A stretch of 32,598 bases of DNA from NCBI GenBank assembly GCA_003244145.1, contig QHBM01000084.1, forward strand, positions 72,871-105,468, given 5' to 3'. The notes under the pieces were generated by a model. That model searched no databases, was not told the origin of the DNA, and saw only the letters and a program-made list of their open reading frames with translations. The translations under genes were made by a program, and so were the position numbers. The DNA is from Chthoniobacterales bacterium. GTDB lineage: Bacteria > Verrucomicrobiota > Verrucomicrobiia > Chthoniobacterales > UBA10450. Below, piece by piece: positions 6,784 to 19,967 of the stretch. Numbering within the stretch: position 1 is the first letter of the stretch; each line of letters opens with the position of its first letter.

Positions 6784-7873
6784 TTACAATTCCGGAGTAG
6801 AGCCGAACCATTTCTTCTCTAGCTGCGTCATGAACCCGCGTTCGTTCAGGGCGAGCAGCGCCCGGTTTATGGCAAGACGGAACGGACTCTCCTGTTGAAG
6901 ACCAATCCCGTAGAGCTGCTTCTCGAACACCTGGCCCACCAGCCGGAAGCGCGTCCCGGAGTTCCTGGTCAGGTAATAACGCAATACCGGCGCGTCATAG
7001 ACGACCGCTTTCAATTCGCCTGGGTTAAGGGCGGCCGCCGCGCTCGCCACATCGGGGTAGGGGTAGACTTTTGCCTGGTTGTTCCTAAGCCAGGTTTCTC
7101 AGCAGTGCTCCCGGCCACCGTGCCTACCTTGAGGCCGGGCAGGTCCGCGGGCCCGCTGATATCGCCCGTAAGACTCTTGACTGTCATCTCGGTGGTAACT
7201 GCGGCCGTGAAGTAAGCGATCAGGACTATGCTGGAACCATCCAAAGGATGGCGACGAGTCGCGCGGGAACGCCCATGGGACCTTTGGCTTCGCAACCGCC
7301 CGTGCAAAGCATGCTGATCGTCCACCAGAAAGATTCCCAGACGCCTGGCGCGTACGCCTCCGGATACATCTCGGCATTTTTGCGGCGCTCGAACCACCAG
7401 ACAAAATGAGAAACCAGGAACATGACCAGGAAGACTAGCCCGATGACCTTGAAGCTACTCCAGTTAAAGAACTGGCGCGTCAGGTTACTGGCCACGTTTC
7501 CGCTCCGGGCCGCATTCGTCGCCACAAGAATCTGCAAGCCGGAGTCGTAATAAGGCTGGGAGAAATCCATGAAGCCGTGACGCTCCGCCGTGATGCTTAT
7601 GGCGGCGATCGCCACATCTGCTTCCTTCTTTTTTAGGACATCGAGCATTTGCGGAACGGTCTCGACGTTACGCATCTCGAATTGGAAGCCGGCTTCCTTG
7701 GCCACCGCTTCCCACAGATCGATGCTGAATCCAACCTGTCTTCCGTTGTCCGTGAAGGAAAACGGCGGAACGGGCTTGGTCACGACGCGGATTTTTTGCT
7801 GTCCAAAAGCAGCAGTCGCGAGGAGAGAGCAAGAAACCGCTCCGAGGAGAAAGCGCCAGAGGGTCGTTCGCAT
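6784..7873 (-). pseudogene. Frameshifted glutamate-receptor-like ligand-gated channel (SBP-channel-SBP)
   Basis: Three reading frames together spell one protein. Frame one (7873 to about 7236) has a signal peptide (MRTTLWRFLLGAVSCSLLA...), the first lobe of a type 3 solute-binding domain (IRVVTKPVPPFSF, GFSIDLWEAVAKEAGF), a transmembrane helix (VIGLVFLVMFLVSHFVWWF) and a pore region. Frame two (about 7235-7098) gives the second channel helix (SIVLIAYFTAAVTTEMTV, like the SYTANL helix of receptors) and the start of the second lobe. Frame three (about 7097-6784) completes it through FMTQLEKKWFG. This is the layout of GluR0-type bacterial glutamate receptors. Both breaks fit single-base losses, at 7235-7236 (GGTTCC, expected GGTTTCC) and 7095-7097 (AAA, expected AAAA on the minus strand). 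Either the gene has decayed or the assembly is wrong. The pore filter is also unusual. Confidence 0.85.
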
Positions 7874-11352: not shown

Positions 11353-12066
11353 ATGAATCTTTGGGTAGGAACATCCGGTTTTCAGTACGCGGAGTGGAAG
11401 GGAACCTTCTACCCGGAAGATTTATCGACGACAAAAATGCTGCCGTTTTACGCTGAGCGTTTCGCGACGACGGAAGTGAATTACACCTTCCGAAGAATCC
11501 CCAGCGCGAAAACAATTCAGAATTGGTGGGACGCTACTCCGGAACGCTTCAAGTTCAGCTTGAAAGCGCCCCAAAAAATCACTCACTTCTCGAAGCTGCG
11601 CGATTGCGGGGACACCATGCGTTACTTCTGCCAGGTCATCGCAGACTTGGAGACGAAGCTTGGCCCGGTCTTGTTTCAATTGCCGCCAGCGTTCAAGAAA
11701 GACGCGGCTCTTCTCGCTTCTTTTTTGAACGACATTCCCGCCGGCCTGCGCGCCGCGTTCGAGTTCCGTCATCCCTCCTGGTTCGACGAGGAAATCTACT
11801 CATTGCTTAAACAGAAGAACATCGCGATGTGCCTCGCCGACAGCGAGAAGTTGAGCACGCCAATAGTGGCGACGGCCGACTATGGCTACCTGCGTTTACG
11901 GCGCGAGGATTACCAAAGTGAAGACATGACCCGCTGGGCGGAAACCATCGAAGCCAGGAAGAACGTCTGGGCCGATGCCTTCGTTTATCTCAAGCACGAA
12001 GAAAGCGGGAAGGGTCCGAAGCTGGCTACTCAGCTTCTCGAAATCCTCCAAAAACCCGCGGCCTAG
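11353..12066 (+). CDS. DUF72 (YecE-like) domain protein
   Basis: The product is about 237 residues, the normal size for the family, and starts MNLWVGTSGFQYAEWKG. The family landmarks are present: GTSG.....W...FYP at the start, F.ttE.N.TF.R.P around FATTEVNYTFRRIPSAKTI, FKFSLKAPQKITH, LGPVLFQLPPAFKKD, and AAFEFRHPSWFDEE. The fold is a TIM-barrel-like domain and the biochemical role is unknown. Start ATG 11353 is preferred to 11305, because homologues start at the GTSG strand. The stop overlaps the stop of the converging Ku gene by four bases. DUF72 genes are sometimes found near DNA-repair genes, so a functional tie with Ku is possible but not shown. Confidence 0.9.
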   Translation: MNLWVGTSGFQYAEWKGTFYPEDLSTTKMLPFYAERFATTEVNYTFRRIPSAKTIQNWWDATPERFKFSLKAPQKITHFSKLRDCGDTMRYFCQVIADLETKLGPVLFQLPPAFKKDAALLASFLNDIPAGLRAAFEFRHPSWFDEEIYSLLKQKNIAMCLADSEKLSTPIVATADYGYLRLRREDYQSEDMTRWAETIEARKNVWADAFVYLKHEESGKGPKLATQLLEILQKPAA

Positions 12067-12917
12067 GCAGCGGCGCGCCGCTTCTGTTTCACCAACGTCG
12101 AGGTGGAACGGCTGGAGGACCTGGCCCCGTTGCGCTTTGGCTTGAGCGATTGATTCCGGTTCAGGCTTTCCTGAAGCACCTTCACGAGGTCCACCACGTT
12201 GGTCGTCCGCACCGCCGTGACCGGCTTGTCCTTGATCTCCTTGTGCTGCGCTTTCTGCTCGATCAACTCCATCACCGCGTTTCGATATTCGTCGCGATAC
12301 TTTTCCGGTTCCCACGCCACCGACATGCTCTCGATGAGCGACTGCGCCATCTTCAATTCCTTTTCCGTGAGTGCGCTAGTCGGTGCCTGCTTCAATTCCT
12401 CCGGAGTTAGAATCTCGGAGGCGAAATGCATTAACTCCAGGATCAGGAACAACCCATCGGGCTTAACGGAAGCCAGATGTTCGCGATTGCTGATAACGAC
12501 CTTGGCGATGCCGATTTTTCCAGTGCCACTGAGCGCTTTGTGCAAAAGCGCATACGCCTTCTCACCGCCTTTTTGCGGCTCGAGAAAGTAAGGCTTATAA
12601 AAAAACTTCGGGTCCACCTGACCAAGATCGACGAAATCGGTGATGTCGATAGAGTGCGTCGATTCGATCCGCACCTTGGCGAAGTCCTCGTCCTTCATGA
12701 CCACGAATTGCCCGCGCTCGTACTCGAAGCCCTTTACGATCTGATCGGCGGCGACCTCTTTTGAATCGGCTTCGGCGACCTTCTTGTACTTAATCGGGCT
12801 GAGATCCGTCGCCCGAAGCTGACGGAAACTAAGCTTCTCTTCGCGGGTCGCCGGATAAACGGCTATCGGTATGTAAACCAAGCCAAAGCTGATGCTACCT
12901 TTCCAAATCGCACGCAT
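12063..12917 (-). CDS. ku: Non-homologous end-joining protein Ku
   Basis: The 284-residue product starts MRAIWKGSISFGLVYIPIAV, the typical start of bacterial Ku (usual form WKGxIsFGLVxIPVxl). The core follows with LSPIKYKKVAEAD, KGFEYERGQFVVMKDEDF, and the helical arm regions VDPKFFYKPYFLEP and ALTEKELKMAQSLIESM. The last 35 residues are basic and serine-rich (RNQSLKPKRNGARSSSRS, ending KQKRRAAA), as expected for a DNA-contacting C-terminal tail. Ku binds double-strand ends as a homodimer and recruits ligase LigD. No ligD is in the window, so it must be encoded elsewhere. The gene diverges from the lipid operon and converges with DUF72, with overlapping stops. Confidence 0.96.
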   Translation of the reverse strand: MRAIWKGSISFGLVYIPIAVYPATREEKLSFRQLRATDLSPIKYKKVAEADSKEVAADQIVKGFEYERGQFVVMKDEDFAKVRIESTHSIDITDFVDLGQVDPKFFYKPYFLEPQKGGEKAYALLHKALSGTGKIGIAKVVISNREHLASVKPDGLFLILELMHFASEILTPEELKQAPTSALTEKELKMAQSLIESMSVAWEPEKYRDEYRNAVMELIEQKAQHKEIKDKPVTAVRTTNVVDLVKVLQESLNRNQSLKPKRNGARSSSRSTSTLVKQKRRAAA

Positions 12918-13009: not shown

Positions 13010-13675
13010 ATGTCTGAGTACAAACCCACTTCACGTCGTCCCATCGCGGATGTCTTTCGTCTGACGGCACAAGGCGCCACCCGGCTTTGCGTTCGCTATC
13101 GAATTCATCCTGACGCGATCTCTTATCTATCCATCGTCGCCGCCGCGATCGCCGCGATCCTTTTTTGGAAATCCGGAAGACGTCCTAGCTTCCTTTTGTT
13201 CGCGCCGGCGTTTTCCTACCTGAGGCTGTGGTTCAACATGCTCGACGGCATGGTCGCCCTCGCCGCAGGGAAAGGAAGTTGGCGCGGAGAAATCCTGAAT
13301 GATCTGCCGGACCGCGTTTCAGACGTGCTAATCTTTGCCGGCGTCGCGCACAGCGGGTGGATGAATCCGATCATTGGCTATTGGGCGGCCATCTTTGCGC
13401 TTCTCACTGCCTACGTGGGAATGTTCGGGCAAGCCGTCGGCGTCCAACGCGAATTCAGCGGCGTGATGGCGAAGCCGTGGCGGATGGTGACGGTGCATCT
13501 CGCCGCTTGGATTACTTTCGGCGCCATCTGTTGGAACAACGGATCGATTCGATTCGCGAGCTTGACCATTTTCGACTGGGCCTGCCTTACTGTCGTGGCA
13601 GGCTGCTTGCAGACGATCGCCATCCGTTTGAAACGGATCATGGCCGCGTTGCGAGCGAAGTCGGCCGCTCCTTAA
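13010..13675 (+). CDS. ynbA: CDP-alcohol phosphatidyltransferase family protein, YnbA-like, with altered active-site motif
   Basis: A membrane protein of 221 residues with about six helices. It holds the CDP-alcohol phosphatidyltransferase signature D-x2-DG-x2-AR-x8-G-x3-D-x3-D in altered form, NMLDGMVAL at 76-84 and GEILNDLPD at 93-101. Aligned to the pattern, the first and third aspartates are asparagine (N76, N97) and the arginine is leucine (L84); D79 and D101 remain, and D98 and D105 are close. The family transfers a phosphatidyl group from CDP-diacylglycerol to an alcohol. The next gene makes CDP-diacylglycerol and overlaps by one base (TAATG). With the genes after it, this matches E. 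coli ynbABCD, whose function is uncharacterised. As I remember it, E. coli YnbA has the same asparagines; I could not check. Activity and acceptor are unknown. Confidence 0.88.
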   Translation: MSEYKPTSRRPIADVFRLTAQGATRLCVRYRIHPDAISYLSIVAAAIAAILFWKSGRRPSFLLFAPAFSYLRLWFNMLDGMVALAAGKGSWRGEILNDLPDRVSDVLIFAGVAHSGWMNPIIGYWAAIFALLTAYVGMFGQAVGVQREFSGVMAKPWRMVTVHLAAWITFGAICWNNGSIRFASLTIFDWACLTVVAGCLQTIAIRLKRIMAALRAKSAAP

Positions 13676-14628
13676 TGTCGCCGCACCACGCCCTTCACGA
13701 TCCGATCTTCCTCGCCTACCTGCGCATCATTTTCTTTTCGCTGGTCGCGGGGGGAATCGTGCTGGCGATCCTGCAATGGGGCTTCAAGAAACAACTCGGC
13801 GCGATCTGGAGCACTTATCGGTCGTGGCTGGTGCTGGCGCCCATCGGCATGGCCGTCCTCTTTGCGGGCCGCGCCCCGACGATCATAGGTGTCACTCTCC
13901 TTGCCATTTTCAGTTTCAAAGAATTCGCGCGCGCTTCCGGTTTGTATCGCGACTGGTGGACGGTCGGCGCCGTTTATGCCGGCATCGTCACGGTCGGCAT
14001 CGCCTCGTTGATGCCGCATCCCCGCGGCGAAGAACCGGGCCCGGGCTGGTACGGGTTTTTCGTGGCTGTGCCGGTCTTCGCGATTGCGCTCATCCTGCTC
14101 GTGCCGATCCTGCGCAACCGCGCGCGCGGCGAACTCCAGCGCATGTCGTTAGGCATTGTCGGCTTCATTTACATCGGCTGGATGTTCGGCCATCTCGGTT
14201 TCGTCGCGAACTCAGTCAACGCCTACGGCTACCTCCTCTACGTTATTTTCGCGACCGAGTTGAACGACGTCGCGGCGTTTACCTTCGGTCGAATTTTTGG
14301 CCGGCATCCGCTGCGGAGCGAGATCAGTCCCAAAAAAACCTGGGAAGGTGCGCTGGGCGCGCTCGTCATTTCCATGATGTTACCGTGGCTGCTGCGTTTC
14401 TCGTTTCCCGAGTTCGGTCCCTGGCAATTGATTCTGACTGGATTGATCATCGGCATCGGCGGACAACTCGGCGATCTCTCGATCAGCGTGATCAAGCGTG
14501 ACATCGGGACGAAGGATATGGGAGGTTTGATTCCCGGGCACGGCGGCATCCTCGATCGGATCGATAGTTTGATTTATGTTGCGCCGCTCTTCATGCACAT
14601 GGCCGGTTACTACCACGAACTGCGATGA
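13675..14628 (+). CDS. ynbB: Phosphatidate cytidylyltransferase (CDP-diacylglycerol synthase), YnbB-like
   Basis: The 317-residue product has about eight membrane helices. It carries the complete CTP-transferase signature near the C-terminus (residues 271-297): SVIKRDIGTKDMGG, then LIPGHGGILDRID. The enzyme makes CDP-diacylglycerol from CTP and phosphatidate in the inner membrane, which would supply the transferase encoded just upstream. FATELNDVAAFTFGRIFG and SPKKTWEGALG are the two other conserved blocks of the family. The start ATG shares its A with the TAA stop of the previous gene, and its own stop overlaps the acyltransferase start, so translation is tightly coupled. Since a housekeeping cdsA must exist elsewhere, this is probably a dedicated copy. 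Confidence 0.93.
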   Translation: MSPHHALHDPIFLAYLRIIFFSLVAGGIVLAILQWGFKKQLGAIWSTYRSWLVLAPIGMAVLFAGRAPTIIGVTLLAIFSFKEFARASGLYRDWWTVGAVYAGIVTVGIASLMPHPRGEEPGPGWYGFFVAVPVFAIALILLVPILRNRARGELQRMSLGIVGFIYIGWMFGHLGFVANSVNAYGYLLYVIFATELNDVAAFTFGRIFGRHPLRSEISPKKTWEGALGALVISMMLPWLLRFSFPEFGPWQLILTGLIIGIGGQLGDLSISVIKRDIGTKDMGGLIPGHGGILDRIDSLIYVAPLFMHMAGYYHELR

Positions 14629-15353
14629 AGAAATGGCAATACGAACCGGCCCACGATCTCGATCAAACGCTGATCGAGCGGCTGCGGAATTTTCCCCGCG
14701 AACCGGACATGCTCGTCTACGGCCTCCGTTCGCTCGTGGCCCTGGTCATTCGCGCGCTGCTCCGCGGCTACTGCCGGTTTGAGATCGTCGGAGAAGAACA
14801 TTTGCGGAGCAATCGTTCCTTCGTCCTCGTCGCCAACCATTCCAGTCATCTTGATGCTGTCTGTCTTCTTTCCGCCTTGCCGCTTCGGAGACTGCATCGG
14901 GCTTTCCCGGCCGCCGCGGCGGACTATTTCTTCAAGAGCGTCCCGCGGACCTGGATCGCGACGGTGGTGGTAAACGCGTTGCCCTTCGCGCGCCAGACGA
15001 ATGTGCGCCAGAGCCTCGCGATTTGCGGTGAACTCCTCGCGAACGCCGGCAATGTTCTCATCATTTTTCCTGAAGGGACCCGCTCGACCACCGGCGATCT
15101 CCAGGAATTCAAGTCCGGCATCGGCGCGCTCGTGGCGGGGCGCGACATTCCCGTTCTGCCTTGTTATCTCGACGGCGCGTTTCGGGCGTGGCCCAAGGGT
15201 CGGCGCTTGCCGCGGCCTCGGAAGATCCGCCTGATCATCGGCGCGGCGCGCAATTATTCGGAAGTGCCGCCAGAAAAAAACGCGAGCGCTGCGATCGCCG
15301 CGCAACTTCGCGATGCGGTGCAAGAGTTGGCGGCCCCGTATGCAAGCCGCTGA
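14625..15353 (+). CDS. 1-acyl-glycerol-3-phosphate acyltransferase (PlsC/LPLAT family)
   Basis: The product is 242 residues. The HX4D acyltransferase motif is NHSSHLD (H72, D77), and the substrate-binding motif is FPEGTRS (E150-R153). A third block, IPVLPCYLDGAF, matches the late family motif. A hydrophobic segment at about 33-48 likely anchors it to the membrane. The expected reaction is acylation of lysophosphatidate to phosphatidate, the substrate of the CDP-diacylglycerol synthase encoded upstream with a 4-base ATGA overlap. E. coli ynbABCD has no such gene, so the cluster here looks more self-sufficient. An acceptor other than lysophosphatidate is possible for this broad family. Confidence 0.92.
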   Translation: MKKWQYEPAHDLDQTLIERLRNFPREPDMLVYGLRSLVALVIRALLRGYCRFEIVGEEHLRSNRSFVLVANHSSHLDAVCLLSALPLRRLHRAFPAAAADYFFKSVPRTWIATVVVNALPFARQTNVRQSLAICGELLANAGNVLIIFPEGTRSTTGDLQEFKSGIGALVAGRDIPVLPCYLDGAFRAWPKGRRLPRPRKIRLIIGAARNYSEVPPEKNASAAIAAQLRDAVQELAAPYASR

Positions 15354-15360
15354 AGAAACG

Positions 15361-17082
15361 ATGGCGAGTTGGGACGGCGCGAAGATTTTTTACCGCGCCT
15401 GGATCCCGGCCGAAGCGACGAAGAAGGCGCTGCTGCTCTTCCATCGCGGCCACGAACATTCCGGTCGCTGGTCGGAGGTCGTCGAGGCTCTCGCGATGCC
15501 CGACGTGGCGGTTTTCGCCTGGGATGCGCGCGGTCACGGCCACTCGGACGGCGAGCGCGGTTCGGCGGAAAACTTTGGAGCGATGGTGAAGGACGTAGAC
15601 GCCTTCGTTCGCCACATCGGTGAACGCCACGGTTACGCGTTGGAAAACATGATCGTACTGGCGCACAGCGTCGGCGCGGTTTCGGTAGCGGCCTGGGTGC
15701 ATGATTACGCGCCGCCGATTCGCGCGATGATTCTGGCCACGCCCGCATTTCGCGTCCGGCTCTATGTTCCGCTCGCCATCCCGTCTCTCCGGCTGAAACC
15801 AAAATTTCTCGGGCCTAGTTTCGTGAAGAGCTACGTGAAAGCAAAAATGCTAACGCACGATCCCGTGCAGGCCGCCCGTTACGACGCTGATCCGCTCATC
15901 TTCCGGCAGATCGCCGTCAACGTTCTGATCGATCTGCACGACGCCGGAACGCGCCTGCTCGCGGATGCCGGCGCGATCAACGTGCCGACGCTGATGCTTG
16001 CCGCCGGCCGCGATTGGGTGGTGAGCGTGAAGGCGCAGCGCGAATTCTTCAACGCTCTCTCCTCTCCCGTGAAGCGGATGCACGTTTTCCCCGCGGCTTA
16101 TCACGCGATCTTTCACGAAAAGGAACGAGCGCAGGTGATCGAGCGCGCGCGAGAATTTATCCTGGAACGTTTCGCGGAAGCGCCCGCGACACCGTCGCTC
16201 CTGAAGGCCGATCAATTTGGTTACACCTGGGAGGAATACGAACGCCTGAAGCTGCGCGGCGGTCCGCAGTTCGCCATCGTCCGCGCCGGAATGAAAACTG
16301 GCGGACGCTTGAGCAAGGGGATCGATCTCGGTTGGCGGAGCGGTTTCGATTCCGGACTCACGCTCGATTACGTTTACGAAAACAAAGCGCAGGGATCGAC
16401 GGCGCTGGGCCGTTTCATCGATCACGGTTACCTGAACAGCATCGGCTGGCGCGGCATTCGGCAGCGGAAAAAGAATCTGGAAAAGCTGCTGCGAAACGTG
16501 ATCGAGAAAACCCACGCGGAAGGCCGGCCGGTGCGGATTGTCGATATCGCCGCGGGCGGAGGGCGATATCTTCTCGAGACAATCCGCGCGCTGCCAGAGA
16601 TCCCGATGACGGCGTTGTTGCGCGATTATAAACAGGAGAATGTGGACGCGGCGACTCGCCTCGCTCGCGACCTGGGTTTGAGCAACGTCACCGTCGGATC
16701 CGGCAACGCTTTCGATCGCGATTCGCTCGCGGCGCTCGAGCCGAGGCCGACCATCGGCATCGTCTCGGGTTTGTTCGAATTGTTTCCGTCCAACTCCGAA
16801 GTGCTGACCTCGCTGCGCGGATTGGCCGATGCAATCGAGCCGGATGGCTTTCTTGTTTACACGAACCAGCCGTGGCATCCGCAGGTGGAATTCATCGCAC
16901 GCGTCCTGCGCAACCGCGAAGGCGAACCCTGGATCATGCGCCGGCGGACCACTGGCGAGATGGATGAGCTCGTGCGCACCGCGGGATTCGAAAAGAGCAC
17001 AATGGAAGTAGACGAGTGGGGGATCTTCACGGTGTCGGTGGCGCGGCGTGGGAGTAGAAATGGCGCCAATGGCGCACACTGA
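15361..17082 (+). CDS. ynbC: Alpha/beta-hydrolase and class I methyltransferase fusion, YnbC-like
   Basis: A 573-residue two-domain protein. Residues 1-270 are a monoacylglycerol-lipase-like alpha/beta hydrolase: LLLFHRGHEHSGRW (oxyanion region), WDARGHGHSDG, nucleophile elbow LAHSVGA (S103), acid D218 in AAGRDWV, and base H248 in AYHAIFHE. Residues about 285-573 form a class I SAM-dependent methyltransferase with motif I VRIVDIAAGGGRYLLE at 391-406. The same fusion, at similar length, occurs in E. coli YnbC. Fusing a likely lipase or acyl hydrolase to a methyltransferase inside a phospholipid operon suggests head-group or acyl-chain modification, but the substrate is unknown. I chose ATG 15361, seven bases after the acyltransferase stop and preceded by GAAGA; ATG 15340 would overlap that gene. 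Confidence 0.9.
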   Translation: MASWDGAKIFYRAWIPAEATKKALLLFHRGHEHSGRWSEVVEALAMPDVAVFAWDARGHGHSDGERGSAENFGAMVKDVDAFVRHIGERHGYALENMIVLAHSVGAVSVAAWVHDYAPPIRAMILATPAFRVRLYVPLAIPSLRLKPKFLGPSFVKSYVKAKMLTHDPVQAARYDADPLIFRQIAVNVLIDLHDAGTRLLADAGAINVPTLMLAAGRDWVVSVKAQREFFNALSSPVKRMHVFPAAYHAIFHEKERAQVIERAREFILERFAEAPATPSLLKADQFGYTWEEYERLKLRGGPQFAIVRAGMKTGGRLSKGIDLGWRSGFDSGLTLDYVYENKAQGSTALGRFIDHGYLNSIGWRGIRQRKKNLEKLLRNVIEKTHAEGRPVRIVDIAAGGGRYLLETIRALPEIPMTALLRDYKQENVDAATRLARDLGLSNVTVGSGNAFDRDSLAALEPRPTIGIVSGLFELFPSNSEVLTSLRGLADAIEPDGFLVYTNQPWHPQVEFIARVLRNREGEPWIMRRRTTGEMDELVRTAGFEKSTMEVDEWGIFTVSVARRGSRNGANGAH

Positions 17083-18427
17083 TCGGTCCCGCGGCGGCGG
17101 GACTCGCTCCACCTTAAACGCTCTCGCCGCCTCGGTAGGACTCTCGGTCCTCTTCCTCGTCGTTTACGGCTGGTGTAATTGGTTCACCGCGCAACGCGGT
17201 AATGTTCCGTCGCTGTTCTTCGAGTGGGAGCGCTCGATCCCGTTCGTCCCGCTCATGATTGTTCCTTACATGTCGATCGACTTGTTCTTTGTCGCAGCGC
17301 CATTTCTTTGCCGCAGCGACCGTGAGCTTGCGACGTTTTCGAAACGCATTGTCGCCGCGATCCTTATCGCAGGGATTTGCTTTCTTCTTTTTCCGCTCCG
17401 TTTTGCGTTCGCGCGGCCACACCCCAGCGGATGGCTCGGCGCGTTCTTCGATTGGTTCCGCGGGATGGATCAGCCTTACAATCTGCTTCCCTCGCTCCAC
17501 ATCGCGCTGCGGACCATTCTCGCGGAAATTTATGCGCGACACACTCGCGGGATCCTGCGGAGCGCTTCGAATATTTGGTTTGTCTTGATCGGGTTTTCCG
17601 CGGTCCTGACCTATCAGCACCACGTCATGGACGTTGTCGCCGGGTTCGCGCTCGGCGCTTACTGCCTCTATTTCATTCCAGAACGCGCGCCGCATCTTCC
17701 GGTGACCGCGAACCGTCGACTCGGAGCGTATTATGTGATCAGCGCACTCATCGTCGCTGGCTTTGTTTTTTTATGGTGGCAGTGGGGCGCGTTACTGATT
17801 TGGCCGCTGACAGCTCTCGCAATCACGGCGGCAGCGTACATCGGCTGGGGATCGGCAATTTTTCGAAAGACGGACGGACGCGTGCCTTGGACCACATGGT
17901 GGGCGCTGGGTCCTTGTTTGTTAGGCCAGCACCTTTCTCTGATGCACTATCGCCGGCAATGCCGGGCCTGGGATCAACTCTCACCCCAGGTTTGGATTGG
18001 CCGGATGCTGAACAACAGCGAGGCCGCGACCGCGGTGCGGCTCGGCGTCACCGCTATTCTCGATCTGACTGCGGAATTTTCGGAGGCGCGTCCGTTCCGG
18101 ATATTGCGTTACCGGAACATTCAGATTCTCGATCTCACGGCGCCGCGCCTCGATCAATTGCAGGAGATGGCGGCATACATCGAGGAGGAATCGGGAAAGG
18201 GAATCGTCTACATCCATTGCAAGATCGGATATTCGCGCACCGCTGCCGCCGCTGCCGCCTATCTGCTTTCCAGCGGGATGGTCGGCACGGTCTCCCAAGC
18301 CATGGATCTTGTCCGACAAGTTCGACCTACCGTCGTCGTGCGGCCAGAGATCCTCGCTGCGCTGAACGATTTCGCACGCGAGACGGCGCGCGTTTCTCCT
18401 CGCCTCAATCCCGTGCTCCTCCAATAA
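17060..18427 (+). CDS. ynbD: PAP2-like membrane domain fused to dual-specificity phosphatase, YnbD-like
   Basis: A 455-residue protein. The N-terminal half is a polytopic PAP2-superfamily domain with NLLPSLHIAL (PSLH at 144-147) and TYQHHVMDVVAG (H187, D191). Classic PAP2 phosphatases have an Arg six residues before that His; here the position is Ala. That resembles the Aur1/sphingomyelin-synthase-like branch (PAP2_3) more than true phosphatases. The C-terminal 150 residues form a dual-specificity or tyrosine phosphatase domain with VYIHCKIGYSRTA (C387, R393; the CX5R motif). Likely roles are dephosphorylating a phosphatidylglycerophosphate-like product or moving a head group. The start is ATG 17060, with GGAG about six bases upstream, and it overlaps ynbC by 23 bases. 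Architecture matches E. coli YnbD. Confidence 0.88.
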   Translation: MAPMAHTDRSRGGGTRSTLNALAASVGLSVLFLVVYGWCNWFTAQRGNVPSLFFEWERSIPFVPLMIVPYMSIDLFFVAAPFLCRSDRELATFSKRIVAAILIAGICFLLFPLRFAFARPHPSGWLGAFFDWFRGMDQPYNLLPSLHIALRTILAEIYARHTRGILRSASNIWFVLIGFSAVLTYQHHVMDVVAGFALGAYCLYFIPERAPHLPVTANRRLGAYYVISALIVAGFVFLWWQWGALLIWPLTALAITAAAYIGWGSAIFRKTDGRVPWTTWWALGPCLLGQHLSLMHYRRQCRAWDQLSPQVWIGRMLNNSEAATAVRLGVTAILDLTAEFSEARPFRILRYRNIQILDLTAPRLDQLQEMAAYIEEESGKGIVYIHCKIGYSRTAAAAAAYLLSSGMVGTVSQAMDLVRQVRPTVVVRPEILAALNDFARETARVSPRLNPVLLQ

Positions 18428-18439
18428 TCGGCGCTGCTT

Positions 18440-18868
18440 ATGAAATACAACGATTTGATCCAACTCTACTTTGAACGCACCACCGCATTGCAGAATTATT
18501 GGACGCTTTACGTCGTCATCGTCGGAGGTTTGCTCGCGTTCTCGTCACTGCGAAAACAGCCGGCCGCACTGACGACCCTCGTTGTCTCGATTCTGTTCGG
18601 CCTGTTCGCCTACGAAAATCTCGATGCCATTAAGGCCACGGCCACGCAGCGCCACGCCACCCTCGCCGCGATCAAACAATCCGACGCCGGTTCGACCGCG
18701 CCCGAAATCAAACCGATGCGCGAACTTCTCGAGCCGACTCTCAATCCGGCGTCAATCAGCTCCACCCAGACGACGCATCTCATTAGCGACATCCTTACGA
18801 TTGCGGGTCTTTGGGTAATGGAATTGCGCCGGCGCAAAAATGTCGCGGCCGTCGCGGTAGTGGTTTAG
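18440..18868 (+). CDS. Small membrane protein of unknown function in the lipid operon
   Basis: The product is 142 residues. Two hydrophobic helices lie near the N-terminus (about 20-35, LYVVIVGGLLAF, and 43-58, LTTLVVSILFGLFAY), then a polar stretch of about 55 residues, then a third helix near HLISDILTIAGLWVMEL and a basic patch RRRK. I do not recognise the family. It starts 12 bases after ynbD and ends 13 bases before corA, all in one direction, so it is probably co-transcribed. Whether it belongs to the lipid pathway or to CorA is unclear. Confidence 0.7.
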   Translation: MKYNDLIQLYFERTTALQNYWTLYVVIVGGLLAFSSLRKQPAALTTLVVSILFGLFAYENLDAIKATATQRHATLAAIKQSDAGSTAPEIKPMRELLEPTLNPASISSTQTTHLISDILTIAGLWVMELRRRKNVAAVAVVV

Positions 18869-18881
18869 CGCGCGAGTCTTC

Positions 18882-19967
18882 ATGTTCAAGACGCGTAATC
18901 CCATTCCGGGCGAATCGCCGGGAACGTTGCGGCCACGGGAAGAACTCGAGAGGCGCCCTCCGGTCATCACCTTGATCGAATACGATCGCGGCTATCTGGA
19001 AGAACGCGTCATCAACGAGAAGGAAGAGTTGCTGCCCCACCTCGACAATCAGCGCGTAACCTGGATCAACATCGACGGCCTGGGCGACATCGACGTTCTG
19101 CGCGCTCTCGGGTCCCGCTTCAATCTGCATCCTCTCGCGCTCGAAGACGTTCTCGACACCAGCCAGCGCCCGAAGGTCGAGCAGTACGACAATTACCTCT
19201 TCATCGTCGCACACATGCTCTACCTCGATCATGGCAAAGCCATTTGCGGCGAACAGGTCAGCATGTTTCTGGGCAAGAATTTTCTGATCACGCTCCAGGA
19301 AGAAGCGGAGTTCGATGTTTTCGAACCGGTGCGCGCCCGCATCCGCGCCGCTAACGGCACCATTCGCAAAATGGGACCTGATTACCTCGCGTATGCCCTG
19401 CTCGATTCGATCATCGATTATTATTATCCGGTGCTCGAAGCCGTCGGCGCGAAAATCGAGCTGATCGAAGACCATCTGGTGGATGTCCCGAGAACGAACC
19501 CGATCGGAGAACTGCACGGGCACAAGCGCGCCTTGTCGCAAATCCGACGCTTCATCTGGCCGGTGCGGGATCTGGTTAATTTCCTCATCCATGAAGAGAG
19601 CGGAATCATCACTAAGGGCACGAAAGTGTATCTCCGGGATTGTTACGATCACACGGTCCAATTGATGGACCTGGTCGAGAGCTATCGTGATGTTCTTTCG
19701 GGGCTGATGGATTTGTATCTTTCCGCTGTCGGAATTCGGACGAACGAGATCATGCGGGTCCTGACTGTGATTTCATCGGTCTTCATTCCGCTGACTTTTA
19801 TCGCTGGAGTTTACGGGATGAATTTTGCGCGCGAGGTTGATGGCAAGAGGTTGCCCTGGAACATGCCGGAGCTTTACTCTCCCTATGGCTACATCGGCTG
19901 TCTCTTGTTCATGCTGGCCGTGGCCATTTTCCAGATCGTCTATTTCAAAAAGCGCCGCTGGTTGTAG
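18882..19967 (+). CDS. corA: CorA family magnesium/cobalt transporter
   Basis: The 361-residue product is full length for CorA. A large soluble N-terminal domain (about 1-290) contains LHPLALEDVLDTSQRPKVEQ, the typical family block. Two C-terminal membrane helices follow. The first is followed by the signature YGMNF (the GMN filter motif) and the short periplasmic loop with MPEL, and the protein ends in the basic FKKRRWL. CorA forms a pentameric inner-membrane channel for Mg2+, also passing Co2+ and Ni2+. It lies 13 bases behind the small membrane protein at the end of the lipid operon. Many CDP-alcohol transferases and phosphatases need Mg2+, but this link may be only positional. Confidence 0.95.
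   Translation: MFKTRNPIPGESPGTLRPREELERRPPVITLIEYDRGYLEERVINEKEELLPHLDNQRVTWINIDGLGDIDVLRALGSRFNLHPLALEDVLDTSQRPKVEQYDNYLFIVAHMLYLDHGKAICGEQVSMFLGKNFLITLQEEAEFDVFEPVRARIRAANGTIRKMGPDYLAYALLDSIIDYYYPVLEAVGAKIELIEDHLVDVPRTNPIGELHGHKRALSQIRRFIWPVRDLVNFLIHEESGIITKGTKVYLRDCYDHTVQLMDLVESYRDVLSGLMDLYLSAVGIRTNEIMRVLTVISSVFIPLTFIAGVYGMNFAREVDGKRLPWNMPELYSPYGYIGCLLFMLAVAIFQIVYFKKRRWL

Follow-up and report, generated by a model that had tools for sequence, protein, structure and literature searches.

A predicted lipid operon of five coupled genes, termed here A, B, P, C and D, occupies positions 13010 to 18427 of a 32,598-nucleotide stretch of DNA from a soil bacterium of the Chthoniobacterales (assembly GCA_003244145.1, contig QHBM01000084.1, positions 72,871 to 105,468 of the forward strand), referred to as the window. 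Its first gene encodes a protein with the predicted fold of the CDP-alcohol phosphotransferases (CDP-AP), in which two of the four signature aspartates are replaced by asparagine. This N-D-N-D catalytic signature of the A family is newly noted here. A, B and P form the core of the cluster, while C and D are accessory. With a probability of roughly 40%, and hence tentatively, the operon is read as a dedicated phospholipid branch, every reaction of it predicted, which would make a phosphatidyl-alcohol phosphate and would subsequently dephosphorylate and remodel the product.

All five reading frames are open, lie on the plus strand and are coupled. A (13010-13675; 221 amino acids) is YnbA-like and B (13675-14628; 317 amino acids) is a YnbB/CdsA-like CDP-diacylglycerol synthase (PF01148, 3.5e-55). 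P (14625-15353; 242 amino acids) is a PlsC-type acyltransferase (PF01553, 1.5e-21), and C (15361-17082) is a YnbC-like fusion of an alpha/beta hydrolase with a methyltransferase (PF12146, Hydrolase_4, 6.6e-67; PF12147, Methyltransf_20, 3.3e-123). D (17060-18427), which is YnbD-like, combines a PAP2_3 membrane domain with a dual-specificity phosphatase (PF14378, 2.8e-8; PF00782, DSPc, 7.3e-14). B starts on the last base of A (13675) within the sequence TAATG; B and P overlap by 4 bases in ATGA; P and C are separated by 7 bases, although an alternative in-frame ATG for C, at 15340, would make them overlap by 14; C and D overlap by 23 bases. A preliminary description of this DNA had named five tightly coupled genes of these families, and both statements were confirmed, the assignments of B, P, C and D by Pfam and that of A by a homologue profile and by its fold. 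The order A-B-P-C-D is kept in 9 of the 23 loci fetched with C, and 4 more loci, which reach a contig end, hold four of the five genes; the arrangement is, therefore, not due to chance. The closest named relatives of the C protein of the window are found in metagenome-assembled genomes of Spartobacteria and Verrucomicrobia (80-89% identity).

The A protein alone has no Pfam match at E 0.1, and its NCBIfam matches, to inositol-phosphate transferases (best 6.1e-19), fall well short of the cut-offs of these models. PF01066 is matched at E <= 0.1 by 20 of 23 aligned homologues of A, and a profile built from these 23 retrieves mycobacterial phosphatidylinositol-phosphate synthase (PIPS; PDB 6h53) with an E value of 7.3e-19. 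When the AlphaFold model of A (pLDDT 86) was submitted to Foldseek, PIPS enzymes and AF2299 came out on top, followed by CEPT1 and PSS, with 6h5a as the nearest solved structure (TM 0.69 and 0.74); the predicted structure has the membrane fold of the CDP-AP family. The signature of that family comprises eight residues, D1xxD2GxxAR...GxxxD3xxxD4 (PMC4634129), of whose aspartates three hold the metal and D4 is the likely base (PMC4634129; PMC8633023); these papers, like the others cited below, were available in part. In 94 of 94 strong members of the A family, D1 and D3 are asparagine (N76, positions 13235-13237, and N97, positions 13298-13300, in the window), turning D-D-D-D into N-D-N-D, and earlier sets gave the same result (30/30, and 71/71 of those with letters at these sites). 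D2 and D4 (D79 and D101), both signature glycines (G80, G93) and the alanine (A83) are kept in all 94 members from five phyla, as is D105; the signature arginine varies. K155, R158 and R206 are found in each of the 92 members with letters there. With asparagine at two signature positions and a variable arginine, A departs from the eight-residue signature and is filed as a homologue with the CDP-AP fold, not as a canonical member. This departure had escaped the preliminary description of the DNA. The excerpts of open-licence literature that were searched contained no description of an N-D-N-D signature.

Among 16 weaker matches, hand-picked from the lower-scoring rows of the searches of three phyla described below, 15 read D-D-D-D; the exception, L199, is spread over two frames next to a P match and has the look of a disrupted A-family gene. 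The genome of the window holds six matches to the ordinary CDP-alcohol transferase family, five of which show D-D-D-D in a pattern search, which found no motif in the remaining one. Mycobacterial PIPS (PgsA1), the nearest solved structure, has aspartate at D1 and D3 where A has asparagine, but it shares with A both arginines of the acceptor-phosphate site: R155 and R195 of the M. tuberculosis enzyme, which have been assigned to the phosphate of inositol phosphate (PMC4634129), align with R158 and R206 of A in a sequence-profile alignment.

In B, which matches PF01148, the positions of the C-terminal CdsA signature are conserved in an alignment of 25 sequences, in keeping with the CdsA/YnbB synthases. 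The motifs of PlsC-type acyltransferases are NHxxxxD and FPEGTR. In P they read NHSSHLD and FPEGTR, and N71, H72, S74 and D77 as well as F148, P149, E150 and G151 are conserved in an alignment of 26 sequences; against the NCBIfam model AGP_acyltrn, P scores below the cut-off (46.3 of 102.95 bits). Besides B and P, the genome of the window contains another CdsA match and two more acyltransferase matches; the two operon genes are therefore additional copies, which fits a dedicated branch. B and P diverge in step: their distances show a rank correlation of 0.72 over 83 loci and of 0.83-0.97 inside the three subfamilies of A, within which the distances of A correlate with those of B or P at 0.42-0.72.

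The hydrolase half of C is nearest to monoacylglycerol lipases, and its S103, D218 and H248 are conserved in an alignment of 39 sequences. The solved structures nearest to the model of its methyltransferase half (pLDDT 93) are O- and C-methyltransferases of various kinds, together with an unassigned protein from Bordetella. In D, H147, H187, H188, D191, C387, G390 and R393 are conserved (alignment of 25); the loop HCKIGYSRT is the CX5R loop of a dual-specificity phosphatase, formed with C387 and R393. Compared with solved structures, this domain has PTPMT1 as second match (9.6e-7), one of many dual-specificity phosphatases matched. Full-length C, counted as PF12147 above 300 bits, is present in 13 of the 387 Verrucomicrobiota genomes searched. 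A strong A match occurs in all 13, compared with 23 of the 374 genomes without C (Fisher 4e-15, kinship ignored), and in 7 of the 13 it lies on another contig than C. Two plasmid loci hold deviating C genes. In Moraxella osloensis (L006, 5248-7740), a single open frame holds A together with the start of C, and C itself is divided between two frames; this may be either a fusion of A with C or a disrupted gene, and it adjoins a patatin-like phospholipase and an SDR gene. In Kosakonia cowanii (L007, 5965-7593), a distant relative of C (32.5% identity) lies in a fatty-acid-type cluster with a carrier protein, ketosynthase, MaoC and FabG, which may hint at the substrate of the methyltransferase.

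The best-known relative of the cluster is ynbABCD (b1408-b1411) of E. coli, which shares four of the five families, arranged as in the window, and whose YnbA is also N-D-N-D. The defining set of A, B, the hydrolase-methyltransferase fusion and the PAP2-phosphatase fusion stands together in the window, and BLASTP identities to the K-12 proteins are 23% over 131 amino acids for A, 45% over 119 for B, 49% over 578 for C and 33% over 416 for D. P has no counterpart in the chromosomal ynb operon, so that the earlier comparison, the same architecture minus PlsC, was correct. The ynb operon had also been called uncharacterised; this is true of it in part only, since YnbB is a published paralogue of CdsA; according to the sections available, its overproduction increases the glycolipid MPIase, and it is unable to substitute for CdsA (PMC6362211, PMC7018664). 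At a coverage of at least 80%, the four-gene ynb stretch is present in 4242 of 5426 E. coli genomes. In strain ET12567 (NZ_CP045457, 1780550-1786468) the operon is split by an IS4-like element. An E. coli plasmid (NZ_CP027341, L005) carries a tightly coupled A-B-P-C cluster in the order of the window but has a mere remnant of D; this cluster is found, at 80% coverage, in 3 of the 5426 genomes. The short remnant ends the cluster after position 7716, upstream of insertion-sequence genes. Clusters of N-D-N-D A, B and P like those of the window occur in Rhizobium, Sinorhizobium, Paracoccus, Azospirillum, Bacteroides, Planctomycetota and Verrucomicrobiota; unlike in the window, their gene order varies and neither C nor D is found within 6 kb. 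A, B and P only are present on Rhizobium pRL9 and S. meliloti pSymB and in Paracoccus, Azospirillum and Bacteroides, and all five genes in loci of Shinella and Burkholderia. The open-licence literature searched, in the parts available, holds no description of A-B-P as a unit.

The preliminary description had regarded P as an addition to the Ynb operon in this lineage and had proposed to see whether its insertion is specific to a phylum. The distribution of the genes speaks against this. A was searched in 929 genomes, namely 387 of Verrucomicrobiota, 246 of Planctomycetota (the phylum of G388, a Phycisphaeraceae metagenome-assembled genome) and 296 of Bacteroidota (the phylum of G387, a member of the Weeksellaceae); matches above about 110 bits were counted as strong, and the first pass scored at most 8 to 12 candidates per genome, with misses possible. 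Strong A matches were obtained at 39 loci in 36 genomes, 32 loci in 32 genomes and 6 loci in 6 genomes, respectively. All 77 loci, among them the window as well as three that the search with C had already revealed (G387, G388, G390), were read with family profiles, any gene within 6 kb of A being taken as a neighbour. P is such a neighbour at 65 of them (31/39, 29/32 and 5/6 in the three phyla), with some of the P-less loci near contig ends (L020, L140), and B is found at 33/39, 32/32 and 6/6. Of 17 named loci, 14 have P; these are not a random sample, one (L001) having been chosen by accession, five via C, three via P (L075, L076, L077) and eight via a rhizobial A, and the count omits L007, where no A was found, and L078, which is the same operon as L001. 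All eight loci fetched with the rhizobial A contain P. In four phyla P usually lies beside A and B, the chromosomal operon of E. coli belonging to the minority that lack it, and on the E. coli plasmid it stands between B and C.

The trees are quick ones supported by SH-aLRT values only and contain long branches for L006, L066 and L079. The A tree is divided into three subfamilies, in every one of which P is present. The YnbA of the E. coli chromosome, without P, is sister (SH-aLRT 99) to the plasmid YnbA whose operon has P, and the rows without P, L022 being scored among them, are scattered over the tree (14 of 98 scored rows, 11 changes; two further rows were scored as unknown for P). In a topology test setting the 83 cluster P proteins together against three other acyltransferases, a single grouping was not rejected (p-AU 0.64), which is no proof of one origin. 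The simplest reading is an old partnership of A and P with repeated loss of P, and the chromosomal operon of E. coli looks reduced. A recent or phylum-specific insertion of PlsC is supported neither by the locus counts nor by the A tree and its scattered P-less rows.

For the dedicated phospholipid branch, the following route would apply. P would acylate lysophosphatidate to phosphatidate, and B would convert the latter into CDP-diacylglycerol, as predicted from their families. A would then move the phosphatidyl group from CDP-diacylglycerol onto a small phosphorylated alcohol; a phosphorylated acceptor is proposed because the acceptor-phosphate arginines of PIPS are kept in A. PTPMT1 dephosphorylates phosphatidylglycerol phosphate. 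The phosphatase half of D would likewise strip the terminal phosphate, and its PAP2_3 half together with the lipase-methyltransferase C would remodel or recycle the product. The route from lysophosphatidate to a finished and trimmed phospholipid, as put forward in the preliminary description, is plausible on the families. As to the acceptor, the inositol-1-phosphate synthase family has a match in the genome of the window and none in the E. coli control, which carries ynbA. On this ground myo-inositol 1-phosphate was rejected as a universal acceptor, although it may serve in the window genome; glycerol phosphate would fit E. coli, because that synthase has no match there.

Several observations weigh against this branch. 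In MjPSS, an archaeal serine enzyme, activity was reduced or lost with every alteration of the motif, and with D62N, the third aspartate and the same change as in A at D3, magnesium restored little or nothing (PMC8633023); A may, therefore, not be an ordinary transferase. In E. coli, as reported in the part of the paper available, YnbB restored MPIase and not phospholipid (PMC7018664). P is absent from 8 of 18 clusters with C compared with 7 of 76 without it. No D lies near the A-B-P clusters of rhizobia, Paracoccus and Bacteroides, which means that a gene for the phosphatase step does not accompany every such cluster. Across the full set of 83 loci, A tracks B (0.24) and P (0.20) weakly. Finally, the subfamilies of A do not form clades in the tree of P, which requires 14 changes where 3 would do; genes have therefore been exchanged between clusters.

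Of the other explanations, a backup or stress-induced synthesis of phosphatidylglycerol, in which A would use glycerol 3-phosphate, D would be the phosphatase, and C and D would recycle lipid, is unlikely. It would accord with the resemblance of the D phosphatase domain to PTPMT1, among other dual-specificity phosphatases, and with the activation of ynbA by BglJ-RcsB and its 3.0-fold increase in acid-tolerance work, as given in the available part of PMC12871917. A is, however, nearer to the inositol-phosphate synthases than to PgsA, by sequence as well as by fold, and is not D-D-D-D, and YnbB cannot replace CdsA (PMC6362211).

Likewise unlikely is a role of the operon in supplying an MPIase-type glycolipid with a pyrophosphate link, for which B, perhaps together with A, would join CDP-diacylglycerol to a sugar 1-phosphate. 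The MPIase increase upon YnbB overproduction would be explained, and the authors place YnbB in the synthesis of GlcNAc-PP-diacylglycerol (PMC6362211, PMC7018664); the phosphate-pocket arginines kept in A would be in line with it, and in a transposon screen insertions in ynbB were depleted in E. coli making only the phosphoglyceride-linked enterobacterial common antigen (PMC8609368). Yet in the accessible text a ynbB knockout caused no significant change in MPIase (PMC6362211), and ynbB is stated to be unnecessary for that antigen (PMC8609368). No glycan gene was recognised by eye among the 30 recurring neighbour families listed, and P, C and D would have no evident role.

That A has lost its catalysis and serves B as a partner or regulator, in an operon that mainly turns lipids over, is distinctly doubtful. 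Two of the four catalytic aspartates are asparagine in every strong member, and D62N cripples MjPSS (PMC8633023). On the other hand, a dead site would be expected to drift, and the invariance of the six remaining site residues in 94 members and of K155, R158 and R206 in 92, across five phyla, weakens this explanation.

A long shot is that the A family, its metal site rebuilt, represents a catalytic class new to the CDP-alcohol transferase fold, which may attack CDP-diacylglycerol with a phosphate and not a hydroxyl, yielding X-PP-diacylglycerol. If true, this would account both for the kept phosphate pocket and for the connection reported between YnbB and GlcNAc-PP-diacylglycerol; pyrophosphate-linked lipids would then have in A-B-P a widespread route that has gone unrecognised. 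An insertion of PlsC into a Ynb operon in this lineage, giving it a new ability, is highly improbable: the absence of P from the E. coli chromosomal operon and 13 other rows of the A tree, and the disagreement of A subfamilies and P tree, by which P moved between clusters, are outweighed by its company with A in four phyla and all three subfamilies, the sister relation of the two E. coli YnbA proteins, the scatter of P-less rows, and the unrejected, if unproven, single grouping of P.

Downstream of D follow, on the plus strand and after gaps of 12 and 13 bases, a small protein (18440-18868) with no Pfam or NCBIfam match above its cut-off, and a CorA-type transporter (18882-19967; TIGR00383, 1.2e-96; CorA Pfam, 8.2e-65). 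Both had been thought to complete the transcript. Their adjacency holds in the window, and the small protein, which comes after D in close relatives, recurs at 9 of the 23 loci fetched with C; CorA, being near the operon at 4 of the 23, one of these partial, is not conserved with it and was rejected as part of the system. The promoter scan gave 1 site against an expectation of 2.1, and the terminator scan 11 against 9.0; both are at chance level. Directly upstream and divergent lies a gene for a Ku-type DNA end-joining protein (12063-12917, minus strand). Among 100 A loci, most of the 30 recurring neighbour families listed resemble shadow frames of the five operon genes. At L144 (5789-6334, minus strand) and some other loci, a small EamA- or SMR-like membrane protein adjoins A on the same strand; this group comprises 11 loci, among which shadow frames may be included.

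Summarizing, the five-gene observation is upheld and the added PlsC is not, and the family of A is the part that deserves a second look. The A-B-P unit, at times joined by two tailoring genes, is found in four phyla, with A present in a Fusobacterium record as well, and a P-less relative is borne by most E. coli genomes. The core shows which genes belong together in co-expression; E. coli ynbABCD lacks the acyltransferase that is usual beside A and B. As the enzymes of this fold that have been studied depend on their aspartates, according to the parts of the reports available (PMC4634129, PMC8633023), the invariant N-D-N-D makes a sharp and inexpensive test. An active A would mean an exception, common to several phyla, to the accepted catalytic rule; an inactive A would mean that the active-site pocket of a membrane protein has been preserved for another role.

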